Below, piece by piece: positions 6,980 to 11,717 of a DNA stretch of 33,406 nt. The stretch spans positions 1 through 33,406 of the forward strand of contig JAJDVR010000038.1 in assembly GCA_022826025.1 (NCBI GenBank), read 5' to 3'. The number at the start of each line of letters is the position of its first letter. Within the stretch, counting starts at the first letter, position 1. The position numbers were made by a program, and so were the translations under genes. Below the pieces are notes generated by a model. The model searched no databases and had not been told where the DNA came from. It saw only the letters and a list, made by a program, of their open reading frames with translations. Source of the DNA: Gemmatimonadota bacterium (GTDB lineage Bacteria > Gemmatimonadota > Gemmatimonadetes > Longimicrobiales > Gaopeijiaceae).

Positions 6980-8230
6980 TTGGACATCGCCGAACTCAAG
7001 AGCAAGAAGGTCAGCGAGCTTCACGAACTGGCCAGCGAACTGCGCATCCCGAACTACTCCGGGCTGCGCAAGCAGGATCTCATTTTCCGCATCGAGCACA
7101 AGCTTCTCGACAGCGACGTCGTGCTTCGCGGAGAAGGCGTGCTCGAAATCCTCCCCGAGGGATACGGATTCCTGCGCTCGCAGAGCTGGAACTATCTCTA
7201 CGGCCCCGATGACATTTACGTGAGTCCCTCGCAGATCAAGCGATTCGATCTGCGCACCGGCGACACCATCCTGGGCCAGGTGCGTCCCCCCAAGGAAGGT
7301 GAGCGCTACCTGGCGCTGCTCAAGGTGGAGAACGTCAACTTCGAGCCGCCCGACAAGGCGCGGCATCGGATGACGTTCGACAACCTGCGCCCGCGCTATC
7401 CCGACGAGCGCCTGCGGCTCGAGTGCTCCAGGCGCGACATGTCCACGCGCGTGGTGGACCTCGTCGCCCCCATCGGCAAGGGACAGCGCGGCCTGATCAC
7501 ATCCCCGCCCAAGGCGGGCAAGACGATGCTGCTGCAGAAGGTGGCCAACTCGATCAGCGAGAATCACCCCGAGGTGCACCTGATCGTGTTGCTCATCGAT
7601 GAGCGGCCGGAGGAAGTCACCGACATGGAGGAGAACGTCGACGCCGAGGTGATCGCCTCAACCTTCGACGAGTCGGCGGACCGCCACACGCAAGTCGCGG
7701 AAATGGTGCTGGAGAAGGCCAAGCGGCTGGTCGAGCAAGGCAGGGATGTCGTGATCCTGCTCGACTCGATTACCCGCCTGGCGCGTGCCTACAACGTCAC
7801 CGTGCCGCACTCGGGGAAAATCCTGTCGGGAGGCGTGGACTCCAACGCGCTGCACAAGCCGAAGAGGTTCTTCGGGGCCGCGCGCAACATCGAGGGCGGA
7901 GGGTCGTTCACCATCATCGCCACCGCCCTGATCGAGACCGGAAGCCGCATGGACGAGGTGATCTTCGAGGAGTTCAAGGGCACCGGCAACATGGAGCTGG
8001 TGCTCGACCGCAACATCGCAGACAAGCGCGTCTTCCCGGCCATCGACATCAACCGTTCCGGCACCCGCAAGGAAGAGCTGCTGCTGACCGAAACCGAGCG
8101 CAACCGGGTGTACCTGCTGCGCAACTTCCTCTCCGACATGCCGGTTTCCGAGGCCATCCAGTTCCTGATCGAACGGATGAACCGCACGGAGACGAACCAG
8201 GAGTTCCTGGATTCCATGCAGGCGGCGTAG
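6980..8230 (+). CDS. rho: Transcription termination factor Rho
   Basis: The start is a TTG at 6980, with GGAG at 6969-6972 and a 7-nt spacer. This gives 416 residues beginning [18 protein letters not shown], the normal Rho N-terminus; an in-frame ATG at 6935 would add 15 unrelated residues. Rho is the hexameric RNA-dependent ATPase/translocase that ends untranslated transcripts. The N-terminal helical domain is at about 1-47, and the cold-shock-like RNA-binding fold with EGYGFLRS and [11 protein letters not shown] is at about 48-118. Walker A SPPKAGKT is at 175-182, followed by the catalytic [12 protein letters not shown] and Walker [18 protein letters not shown]. The Q- and R-loop region runs through [10 protein letters not shown] and [15 protein letters not shown]. 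No insertion or missing catalytic residue is evident. Confidence 0.97.
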
Positions 8231-8252
8231 GGAGCCGCCCACCGGCGTTTCC

Positions 8253-8750
8253 CTACGGTTGCGAGCAGGAGGGGAAGACGACCGAGCGGCCGAAGCTGGT
8301 CCACTCGCCGCACGGCCTGCCCGACCGCCAGGCGCCCCGCTCGGCCAGCGCGCCGCGCGTCCAGTACGACTCGTAGGCCCCGTCCAGTTCGCCGTTGGCG
8401 TAGTTCTCGCGCAGGGAGAGCAGTCCGGACTTGAAGTACATCTCCGCGGGTCCGTGCAGGACGCCGTCCCGGTAGCTCTCCCGGCCGGAGAGCCGGCCGT
8501 TCAGATGGAACCACTCGTGTACGCCGGTCCAGCGGCCGTCGACCAGGGTGCCGCGTTCGCGAACGATGTCCGGTGTCCACATGCGCACCACCGGGCCGCT
8601 GTAGGGTTCGAGGGTGCCCGGTTCGAGGTAGACGCCCGCGCGCTCGATGAGGCGGTCGAGGCTCGTCGCTTCCTGCCCGGCCGCCGGGGTGGCACCGTTA
8701 ACCGTGGGAGCGACAACCGCCGCCACGGCCAGGAGGCCGAGCAGCTTCAT
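8253..8750 (-). CDS. Secreted MORN-repeat-like protein (YwqK-type repeats)
   Basis: The 165-residue protein has a signal peptide (about residues 1-25, [15 protein letters not shown] then a small-residue stretch). Its C-terminal half has about four repeats of 20-23 residues of the G...G....Y..G.L.G type (for example [55 protein letters not shown]). These are the toothed-beta repeats annotated as MORN variant or YwqK family. Two Cys near the end (RPCGEW, FPSCSQP) could form a disulfide. Its ATG overlaps the stop of the upstream Ig-like gene by 4 bp, so the two are translationally coupled. The gene is convergent with rho. No toxin partner is visible, so an antitoxin role is unlikely. Confidence 0.8.
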
Positions 8751-9619
8751 CGCATTCCGGCGGGGTCGGCTACGGTCACCGCCACGTAGCCGTTGCTCCA
8801 GCAGCACTGGTTGCCCGCCGAGCTGTCGTTGGCGCTGAAGTTGTCCACGCGCGCGCGCAACAGGTATTCGCCGGGTGCCGTGAACGTTACCAGAGTGCTG
8901 GCTTCTCCGGTGCCGGGAACCGTGATCTGTTGGGGCTCGAAGATCACTTCCTCGGCCGGTCCCTGGAATTTGAACCAGGTGACCCGCACCTCGACATCCG
9001 TGTTCACGTTGTCGTCCGGGGAGCGCTCCGATACCTCCGACGCCCACAGGGTGAGAGAGAGCGGCTCGCCCACGGTCGCGGTGCGTGGCTCCGAATGCGC
9101 GCCCTGGATATACTGGCCCACCTCTCCGCCGTCTCCGAACCGCACGAGCGGGGGCACCGACCCCATCGCGCGCGGCCCGTAGTCGAGCTGGAGCGCATCG
9201 ATCCCCACCCGGGCGGGGGTGGAGTAGGTTACGCCGTTGCTTGTGATGGTCCACACAACCCGCCGGCTGGTATCCGCGTAGCTCTCGGGCACGGTCACCG
9301 AAAAGACCCCCCGGTCGCGCCGGGGCCGCACCGGGAAGTGGGTGGGCTGGTCTCCGTCGAACTCGGCCGGCTCGATGAAGTTGTCGGGACCGAGCGGGAT
9401 GTCGAGGATCTCCTCGGTGTTCAGGTTGAAGAAGCCGTAGGAGAAGGTGAAGGTACCGTCGTCATTCCGATACCAGCCCTCGAAGAAGGGCGCCACGGGC
9501 TCGCCTCTCGGCGGGATGGGCGCCAGCGGGAGTCGCTGCACCTGCTGCGCGCCCAGGGGGACCGCCGCCAGGACAGCGAGCGCCGTGGCGATGCCAAATC
9601 TCGGTTGCAGGGGTTTCAT
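8747..9619 (-). CDS. Secreted uncharacterised protein with Ig-like C-terminal region
   Basis: The 290-residue protein begins with a signal peptide ending near PLGAQQ (about residue 25). I do not recognise a named family. The sequence is mostly predicted beta with few Lys. An N-terminal region has PFFEGWYRNDDGTFTFSYGF and GPDNFIEP segments. A C-terminal region at about 170-285 has Ig/cadherin-like spacing (GEPLSLTLWASE, DVEVRVTWFKF, STLVTFTAPGEYLLRARV). A CCW motif (NQCCWSNGYVAV) lies close to the C-terminus. The start at ATG 9619 gives the signal peptide; an earlier in-frame start would add ten residues before it. It overlaps the MORN-like gene by 4 bp and lies 154 bp downstream of the haem c/copper oxygenase gene. 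Confidence 0.78.
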   Translation of the reverse strand: MKPLQPRFGIATALAVLAAVPLGAQQVQRLPLAPIPPRGEPVAPFFEGWYRNDDGTFTFSYGFFNLNTEEILDIPLGPDNFIEPAEFDGDQPTHFPVRPRRDRGVFSVTVPESYADTSRRVVWTITSNGVTYSTPARVGIDALQLDYGPRAMGSVPPLVRFGDGGEVGQYIQGAHSEPRTATVGEPLSLTLWASEVSERSPDDNVNTDVEVRVTWFKFQGPAEEVIFEPQQITVPGTGEASTLVTFTAPGEYLLRARVDNFSANDSSAGNQCCWSNGYVAVTVADPAGMR

Positions 9620-9773: not shown

Positions 9774-11114
9774 TCAACGCGATCCGCTGCTGCCGTCGCT
9801 CACCACCCGCGCCTTGGCTTCACGCTCCTCGACGAGGCGTTCGTAGCCTTCGTCCGTCAGGTGGGTTATGGCGAGCCAGGCGTGCGACATCTCGTCGGTG
9901 GTGCGGTCGCCGCGCGCGTACCAGATCTCCGCGTCCGGGTTGAGCGGGTTGTCCGCGGTGTTGTCGTACCAGCCAGTCATGACCAGGACCGTTCCCTCGG
10001 GGAGCAGAGGAGCCGAATCGTCGCCGTAGATGTAGCTGTGGTGCCAGCGCGCGTCGAAATCGGTCACCATGCTGATCAGTTCCTCACGACCGTCCGGATA
10101 GATCGCCTTGATGGACATTGCGTGCAGGTGCACGTGCCCGTGCGGCTGGAAGCTGTCCAGGCGGACCGGGTGATCCCACCGCTTGAACCCCTGGGTCATC
10201 GCCGTGCCGCCCGGAGCCAGCGCGATGTCTCCCCGCAGGGGATAGAGGCGCAGGTCCTGCTCGAATTCGGGCGTGTATCCCTCCTCGTGGAACCAGATGC
10301 CGAGTTCAACCTGGTCGTCCGGCACCTCGTAGCCCATGGGATAGTAGTGGGCGTCCCACTCGATCAGGTCGTTCGCCAGCAGGAGGCGTCCGGCGTCGGC
10401 GGGAACGATCTCGCCGACCTTGCCCATGGCATACTCGGAGAGGCTGACCATACGCTGATACTCGCCTTCCTCGTTGAGCCTCAGCAGCCTCGGGATGGCG
10501 TGGTGCACCACCTGGCGGCCGGCGGGGAAGGAGGGCCGCGTCTCGAAGGCGCGCACCCAGCGGTCTTCGCCCAGCCCGGTCGGAACGCGAGGCCGCCACC
10601 AGGTGTCGCCGCCCTCGGCCGGAACCGTGAAGGGCTTCGACTTGATGACGTGGTCGGGGGGACCCAGGATGTGCTCAAGCTGCCACATCTGCCTGTCGGG
10701 CCACTCCACCGGAGGCGGCATGTCCGCCGGGTCGCCCTCGGGCGCGCCCGCGTCCACCCAGGCGACGATGGTCTCGATGTGCTCCTGCTCCAGGCGCCAG
10801 TCGTCCTTGATGTCCTGGATGCCCACGCCCACGTCGAGGTGGTAGGGCGGCATGAGGCGGCGCGATACCTGCTCGCGGATGCGGCGGGCGTAGCGGCGCA
10901 CATCCCGGTAGGTCACGAACGACATCGGCGCCACCGACGACTCCCGATGGCAGATCTGGCAGTTCTCCTGCACGATGGGGGCGATGTCGCGGGCGAAGGT
11001 GATCTCCGGTTCGTCCCCGTTGGTCGACTGCGCCGCAAGGGCGCCGGGAACCAGCAGGGCGGCGCACAGCAGGGCAGGCGGCAGCGTGCGGCCGGAATAC
11101 CGGGAGATGGTCAT
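9774..11114 (-). CDS. Secreted cytochrome c / copper type II monooxygenase-like fusion protein
   Basis: The 446-residue protein has a signal peptide (about 1-28, ending GALAAQ). A small cytochrome c domain follows, with haem site C52-Q-I-C55-H56 and a likely distal ligand Met88 in RRLMPPYH. The remainder resembles the PHM/DBH copper monooxygenase fold. It keeps the expected copper ligand pattern: a His pair H204-H205, H256 in WDAHYYPMG, an HxH run within H325-H331 (QPHGHVHLHAM) and Met409 in a DEM motif, as in the CuM site of PHM. The family hydroxylates C-H bonds with two copper sites; the fused haem domain probably supplies electrons in the periplasm. The substrate is unknown. AGGAGG at 11120-11125, 5 nt before the ATG, fixes the start. 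Confidence 0.85.
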   Translation of the reverse strand: MTISRYSGRTLPPALLCAALLVPGALAAQSTNGDEPEITFARDIAPIVQENCQICHRESSVAPMSFVTYRDVRRYARRIREQVSRRLMPPYHLDVGVGIQDIKDDWRLEQEHIETIVAWVDAGAPEGDPADMPPPVEWPDRQMWQLEHILGPPDHVIKSKPFTVPAEGGDTWWRPRVPTGLGEDRWVRAFETRPSFPAGRQVVHHAIPRLLRLNEEGEYQRMVSLSEYAMGKVGEIVPADAGRLLLANDLIEWDAHYYPMGYEVPDDQVELGIWFHEEGYTPEFEQDLRLYPLRGDIALAPGGTAMTQGFKRWDHPVRLDSFQPHGHVHLHAMSIKAIYPDGREELISMVTDFDARWHHSYIYGDDSAPLLPEGTVLVMTGWYDNTADNPLNPDAEIWYARGDRTTDEMSHAWLAITHLTDEGYERLVEEREAKARVVSDGSSGSR

Positions 11115-11177
11115 TTCGTCCTCCTGTCGGGCATCGTAACGCAGGGTCGCACCGGGGAGTGCGGCCGGCATGCAACT

Positions 11178-11717
11178 CTATTCGTCCAGTACGCTCTCGT
11201 ACCTCGGATTCACGACGAACTGCTGGTCCTGAAAGATCTTTCTGTCCCACGGAAATATTACGGTGGAACCGGTCTCCAGCGCAAAATAATCGGGCTTGTA
11301 GCCCCGTGGCCGCACGAAGCAGGTCGCGGTACGGACTTCGGTGGGCCCGACGTCACGCACGGCCGCGAGCCCCAGCCGCAGGGTCTCTCCGGAAGTGGTG
11401 ATCTCGTCCACGAGCAGCACCCGGCGGCCGGCGGCAACGCGGGGCGCCGCGTCGAGCACCTCGGGGCGCTCGCGGATCGAGTTGTCGGCCCTCCGGCGCG
11501 AGATCTTCATCGAGTGGAAGTCGAGACGCAGCATGGACGCGACGATGGCGCCCGGAATGACGCCCGCGCGCGCGATGCCGACGACCAGGTCGGGCCTGTG
11601 TTCGCGCGCTACCTTGAGCGCGAGCGCCCGGCACAGCTCCCCGAACATCTCCCAGGACACCTCCAGGTAATCTCCGGTCGGATCCGAGAAGCGGGGCTGG
11701 TTGTATCTGGATGGCAT
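11178..11717 (-). CDS. Phosphoribosyltransferase family protein
   Basis: The 179-residue protein shows a type I phosphoribosyltransferase fold. The PRPP-binding loop is VLLVDEITTSGETL with Asp104-Glu105, preceded by VVGIARAGVIPGAIVA, the pyrophosphate loop. Length and layout suit the predicted phosphoribosyltransferases related to xanthine/guanine enzymes, which make nucleotides from purine bases and PRPP in the cytoplasm. The hood is atypical and rich in Phe and Tyr (YKPDYFALE, FPWDRKIFQDQQF), so the base cannot be named. It lies 63 bp upstream of the cytochrome/copper oxygenase gene on the same strand, with no obvious functional link. Confidence 0.85.
   Translation of the reverse strand: MPSRYNQPRFSDPTGDYLEVSWEMFGELCRALALKVAREHRPDLVVGIARAGVIPGAIVASMLRLDFHSMKISRRRADNSIRERPEVLDAAPRVAAGRRVLLVDEITTSGETLRLGLAAVRDVGPTEVRTATCFVRPRGYKPDYFALETGSTVIFPWDRKIFQDQQFVVNPRYESVLDE

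Follow-up and report, generated by a model that had tools for sequence, protein, structure and literature searches.

A predicted cytochrome c–PHM/DBH-like copper protein of Gemmatimonadota and its co-evolving exported partner

PHM and DBH, which take part in animal hormone synthesis, count as animal-type monooxygenases with a need for ascorbate, and the movement of electrons between their separate copper sites has been debated for decades. The CuM site of both activates O2 and inserts oxygen. In PHM, which uses ascorbate, we take R240 to be the anchor of the glycine-carboxylate substrate, and the N-terminus of DBH is a DOMON domain. Other copper oxygenases, namely pMMO with methanol dehydrogenase and the cytochrome-fed LPMOs, are thought to be fed by haem- or PQQ-linked partners, and for pMMO and methanol dehydrogenase it has been discussed that oxidation of the product funds the hydroxylation. 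PQQ dehydrogenases pass electrons to cytochromes c. Here we describe a bacterial protein, T, in which a cytochrome c-like domain precedes a PHM/DBH-like core, together with a second exported protein, P. The open-access literature searched yielded no description of a cytochrome c–PHM fusion or of the T-P pair.

The window is a stretch of 33,406 nucleotides from a Gemmatimonadota bacterium, and the host is described as a sponge-type bacterium. The open reading frame of T translates without interruption, and a strong AGGAGG Shine-Dalgarno sequence lies shortly 5' of its ATG at 11114; an in-frame ATG at 11171 is a possible but less likely start. Judged by eye, the N-terminus is Sec-like, in agreement with the exported polypeptide of the initial annotation, and residues 1–33 have a pLDDT below 50 in the AlphaFold2 model. 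A phosphoribosyltransferase gene (11178–11717, minus strand; PF00156, E 1.2e-20) lies 63 bp upstream on the same strand as T. A promoter and terminator scan gave nothing clearly above shuffles, and plasmid records gave no match. The genome holds three copies of T, one in the window and one each on contigs C190 and C160. Searched alone, T had no match in NCBIfam, no relevant match in the PDB (phmmer) and nothing above cut-off in Pfam, where Cytochrome_CBB3 came closest with 14.7 bits against a cut-off of 27. No link to monooxygenases came out of these single-sequence searches, only out of models and profiles. Since no curated model recognises T alone, the initial annotation, which had read such an enzyme from the raw sequence, made a real catch. 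A search of the genome with PF03712 returned no match at E≤0.001, and because its controls failed as well, this negative result does not speak for absence.

A scan of genome contigs yielded 52 T-related loci. Most are Gemmatimonadota metagenome assemblies (66–98% identity); a second group (46–53%) comprises gammaproteobacterial and Gemmatimonadota assemblies, and one locus is from Rhodothermaeota (32%). Four records named Gammaproteobacteria (L003–L006) are 93–95% identical and have much of the surrounding gene order in common, so they are probably misnamed. Alignment A1 holds 36 sequences, the window protein and 35 of the 52 loci, at 33–96% identity to the window protein. Alignment A3, an outer group of 20 distant homologues (19 fetched, plus L052), was found with A1, or in the case of L052 with the window protein, as queries that included the haem domain; as L052 is in both, the two sets comprise 55 distinct sequences. 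Ten presumed metal positions (C52, C55, H56, M88, H204, H205, H256, H325, H327 and M409) are each invariant in A1 (36/36) and at the matching columns of A3 (20/20), a pattern that in 55 distinct homologues is not due to chance. Related fusions in other environmental bacteria, which the initial annotation had thought to occur, are supported, with both the haem and the copper ligands as predicted. Several outer-group proteins (L105–L124, L052) are longer than T; among the 20 members, 4 give a redoxin/AhpC-TSA match and as many as 4 a match to TPR models. The features of the locus are listed in Table 1.

Table 1. Coordinates in the window of T, its predicted domains and metal ligands, and the two genes downstream.
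Feature	Position	Strand	Basis or remark
T, exported haem c and PHM/DBH-like dicopper monooxygenase-like protein	9774..11114	-	446 aa
Signal-peptide-like N-terminus, T residues 1–28	11031..11114	-	Sec-like by eye
Cytochrome c-like domain, T residues ~38–125	10740..11003	-	weak Pfam Cytochrome_CBB3; helices in model
Haem-binding CQICH (C52, C55, H56)	10947..10961	-	36/36 and 20/20
Probable distal haem ligand Met88 (in MPP)	10851..10853	-	36/36 and 20/20
PHM/DBH-like double jelly-roll, T residues 153–423	9846..10658	-	VIA-align with 5wja_D
CuH ligands H204-H205 (predicted)	10500..10505	-	profile pairing and conservation
CuH ligand H256 (predicted)	10347..10349	-	profile pairing and conservation
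CuM ligands H325, H327 (HGH; predicted)	10134..10142	-	profile pairing and conservation
CuM ligand M409 in DEM (predicted)	9888..9890	-	36/36 and 20/20; A1–A3 hhalign only
P, exported protein, FEGW...QPTHF...QCCW	8747..9619	-	290 aa; 154 bp downstream of T
MORN-repeat protein, exported	8253..8750	-	start overlaps P stop (ATGA); MORN_2 E 3.9e-4, below cut-off

Both CxxCH and a putative distal Met, by which a c-type cytochrome is recognised, occur in every aligned T member (36/36 in A1, 20/20 in A3), and the haem site of the initial annotation, CxxCH with Met88, is borne out by this invariance; from its position, Met88 is the probable distal ligand. Cytochrome_CBB3 is matched weakly at E≤1 by all 36 A1 members (best 1.6e-4) and weakly by 19 of the 20 A3 members, the match of the window protein being below the curated cut-off. 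Two PF01578 matches over cut-off mark cytochrome c assembly genes in the genome, and T would be loaded with haem. The haem might merely anchor the protein or act as a sensor, an external small molecule reducing the coppers as in PHM and DBH. Ascorbate-type donors are compatible with the sequence; however, the haem domain carries all its ligands in 55 of 55 homologues, a count biased by search models that included this domain, and we regard external reduction as very unlikely.

The fold of the copper core was examined by structure prediction. The AlphaFold2 model of T, computed on A1, has a pLDDT of 78.9 and a pTM of 0.78 and shows a double jelly-roll. In Foldseek, the first 28 ranks went to PHM or DBH structures (best E 3.8e-12). 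With VIA-align, the model superposed on DBH 4zel_A with Z 19.9 (271 aligned residues, rmsd 3.1) and, for residues 153–423, on PHM 5wja_D with Z 18.7 (247 aligned, rmsd 3.1). PHM and DBH structures were the only strong matches, at Z 15.4–19.9, and the first other family was PNGase at Z 8.2; a passage in PMC8812541 places PNGase F and PHM in one Pfam clan. The link to PHM/DBH also appears in sequence profiles, independently of the predicted model. The A3 profile matched DBH 4zel_A (E 4.4e-9) and PHM 1yjk (E 2.6e-8). In the printed alignments, VHH and HxH each fall on the same motif, and a single His before Tyr falls on its counterpart. They end before the Met ligand. In hhalign, A1 and A3 match over nearly their whole length (probability 100, E 1.3e-88, 378 columns), so the pairing reaches H204/H205, H256 and H325/H327 of T; the DEM of A1 is paired with EEM of A3, and for this ligand the pairing is between A1 and A3 only. 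PF03712 is matched by 14 of the 20 A3 members at E≤0.1 (the first with 23.3 bits against a cut-off of 23) and PF01082 by 3 of the 20; in A1, 5 of 36 members match PF01082 or PF03712 at E≤1, the window protein having no match. The PHM-type ligand set that had been read from the sequence (H204/H205, H256, HxH and Met409) was thus recovered as invariant, its His residues being paired with PHM/DBH through A3 and its Met with A3. From the span 325–331, in which the HxH had been placed, H325 and H327 stand (36/36), whereas H329 and H331 are not conserved (21/36 and 22/36 in A1). By its predicted fold and its aligned ligands, we assign the T core to the PHM/DBH superfamily.

The initial annotation had described the enzyme as self-contained, a view that does not hold, given the presence of P. 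Of the 52 loci related to T, 48 have P nearby. Contig ends cut two of the remaining four (L040, L051); the other two (L042, L052) lack P despite ample flanking sequence. A sample of 121 genomes drawn from the phylum Gemmatimonadota contains 44 with T and 35 with P. Among the T matches listed, 105 of 109 P matches have a T as their neighbour in the same orientation, 70 of them downstream of it and 35 upstream, with one row per gene for matches in two pieces and with partnerless T rows at least as many as those listed; of the other four, two come from contigs for which no T is listed, one sits at the contig end of C9 and one is a weak match. Three further genomes, those behind loci named Pseudohongiella, Pseudomonadales and Acidobacteria, gave 31 P matches after merging, of which 29 border on a T; some T matches in two pieces were entered by their first piece. 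The constant pairing stands out because the surrounding gene order differs between clades. In the genome of the window, every one of the three full P genes neighbours a T, and a fragment of P sits at a contig end (C9). P accompanies T in 66 of 67 listed rows with E<1e-120 and in 1 of the 19 most distant listed (E>1e-60), so the outer T branch seems to work without P. T and P co-evolve: distances of T and of P (alignment A2, 42 P sequences) correlate with r 0.98 over 65 pairs, a value that none of 2000 permutations attained. Within a genome, the divergence between T paralogues is on a par with that between their Ps (T/P distances 0.71/0.69, 0.72/0.70 and 0.66/0.63), and the correlation therefore goes beyond common descent of the species alone. 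T might also have kept the PHM fold without any catalytic role, as a structural protein that binds copper or haem. We consider this extremely improbable, since no haem or copper ligand position varies among the 55 homologues and T paralogues diverge together with their partners.

Window P had no match in Pfam or NCBIfam at E≤0.1. Its model (pLDDT 72, pTM 0.50) predicts two beta-sandwich domains, and Foldseek returned generic Ig-like proteins only, with poor rmsd; with such matches and this pTM, a function for P from the fold search was set aside. The vicinal CCW of P is missing from one paralogue type (L055, and one P each in L044 and L050) and is hence not essential to the whole P family.

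The third gene of the window's clade is conserved and encodes the MORN-repeat protein; it lies downstream of P in L001, L002, L004, L006–L008, L033–L035 and others, and the coordinates obtained for it in L003, L005 and L074 are fragments. An exported creatininase-like protein is encoded between T and P in three loci (L033:6346-7266, L034:6275-7192 and L035:6388-7299; TIGR04448 E 2.1e-8 in L033, below cut-off), where a gamma-glutamyltranspeptidase gene then follows. L046 encodes an exported 'PDLQGVW' protein (7218–8369), which has relatives in L047–L049, between P and an NHL gene or nearby; it has no match in NCBIfam.

A PQQ-type alcohol dehydrogenase gene is found repeatedly at the pair, in several layouts: divergent from T (L009–L014, L016, L018, L062, L063, L067, L068), in line as PQQ-P-T (L090–L093 and, at a contig end, C190 of the window's own genome), as P-T-PQQ (L096, L101) or as T-P-x-NHL-PQQ (L046, L047, L049). 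Among the matches listed for 17 genomes, such a gene lies within 3 kb of at least 14 of 57 pairs, continuation pieces being omitted, against 2.85 expected under uniform placement. None of 20,000 uniform-placement simulations reached 14, an enrichment to be read as an indication and not as a probability because the pairs are related by descent. A universal link to PQQ dehydrogenases is rejected: 43 of the 57 pairs have none within 3 kb among the matches listed, and no such gene lies beside the pair of the window. In the window's own genome (G000), two similar P starts each follow a PQQ dehydrogenase at a contig end (C9:18803-18991 and C190:1942-2811), perhaps a strain variant or an assembly break.

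The T family can be strongly expanded. The genome of L039 (G121; 6.6 Mb, a single contig) has 31 T rows of at least 1000 nt and 15 P. On this contig, five tandem T genes on one strand (C1:1833427-1843747) are followed by one P (1844156–1845070). So many rows in one genome are unusual for a single hydroxylase reaction and would suit a copper oxidoreductase or a copper/O2 sensor, in which the PHM scaffold would serve to oxidise a substrate or to sense copper and the haem would discharge the electrons into the respiratory chain, with no oxygen inserted. Electron transfer through such a c-type haem can run in either direction, and the PQQ dehydrogenases near some loci are compatible with outward flow. 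However, none of the 55 sequences departs from the full set of CuM ligands, Met among them, and this is the oxygen-inserting site of PHM and DBH. We regard outward electron flow as the strongest rival, albeit a rather unlikely one.

NHL-propeller genes adjoin the T-P pair in five contexts (L041, L046, L047, L049, L096), with a distant one in L091. Three of the encoded proteins (L041:3423-4694, L046:8433-9524 and L096:14568-15569) match the PAL domain of PAM (3fvz) with E 9.6e-10, 1.5e-27 and 3.7e-19, respectively, which would fit peptide amidation, with T as a true peptidylglycine hydroxylase and the propeller as a PAL-like partner. However, all three proteins score higher against TRIM/Thin NHL domains than against PAL, no NHL gene lies beside the window copy, and in a MAFFT alignment of six NHL neighbours only L041 has His at all three positions that we take to be the PAL zinc ligands. 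The residue two positions before HxH also argues against amidation. In the printed A3 profile alignment it is Arg in PHM and Gln in DBH; in T it is Q323, with Gln in 35 of 36 and Met in 1 of 36 A1 sequences, and it is variable in A3. As this corresponds to R240, T is not PHM proper and the substrate of PHM should not be assumed for it. Peptide amidation thus appears highly improbable.

We consider it probable that the T family is a bacterial offshoot of the ascorbate-type dicopper monooxygenases, one that is reduced via its fused cytochrome c and hydroxylates some substrate with a dedicated partner. We propose the following scenario, in which (i) T would reside in the periplasm or at the surface, where its N-terminal cytochrome c domain would collect electrons from the periplasmic redox pool; (ii) the haem, standing in for ascorbate, would pass them to CuH (H204, H205, H256) and CuM (H325, H327, M409); (iii) CuM would activate O2, and the oxygen would be inserted into a C-H bond of some small organic molecule, the substrate; (iv) P, with its two predicted beta-sandwich domains, may serve in holo-assembly, substrate presentation or complex formation with T; (v) in part of the family, the alcohol product would probably be passed to the co-encoded PQQ-type dehydrogenase. 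A speculative extension, which we regard as possible but doubtful, is that the dehydrogenase, in oxidising the product, reduces the cytochrome c of T, that P docks the parts, and that the module has been multiplied for different substrates. If so, product oxidation would pay for the next hydroxylation, and the more than a dozen module copies in some marine bacteria would serve different substrates.

Compared with known systems, the copper core is of a known kind; T is set apart by its fused cytochrome, by the partner dedicated to it and by the expansion of the family. The PHM domain of PAM has in common with T the double jelly-roll and the HH + H and HxH + M copper ligands; in contrast to it, T is bacterial and has a fused cytochrome c, an exported partner and Gln at the position of R240. 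Human DBH (4zel) is the best match of T both in VIA-align and among the sequence profiles and has the same Gln two residues before HxH, whereas T starts with a CxxCH cytochrome. Cytochrome_CBB3-like c domains resemble that of T in CxxCH and the putative distal Met in MPP, but the domain of T is fused to a copper monooxygenase core and scores below the curated cut-off. From pMMO and the LPMOs T differs in fold and copper sites, which are unrelated, and in that the putative donor haem and the oxygenase form one chain. If our preferred reading is true, a large family of periplasmic hydroxylases, with up to 31 rows of at least 1000 nt in one genome examined, and its co-evolving partner would be added to these systems, and a bacterial branch with a covalent, spectroscopically visible donor would allow the inter-copper electron step to be followed directly.
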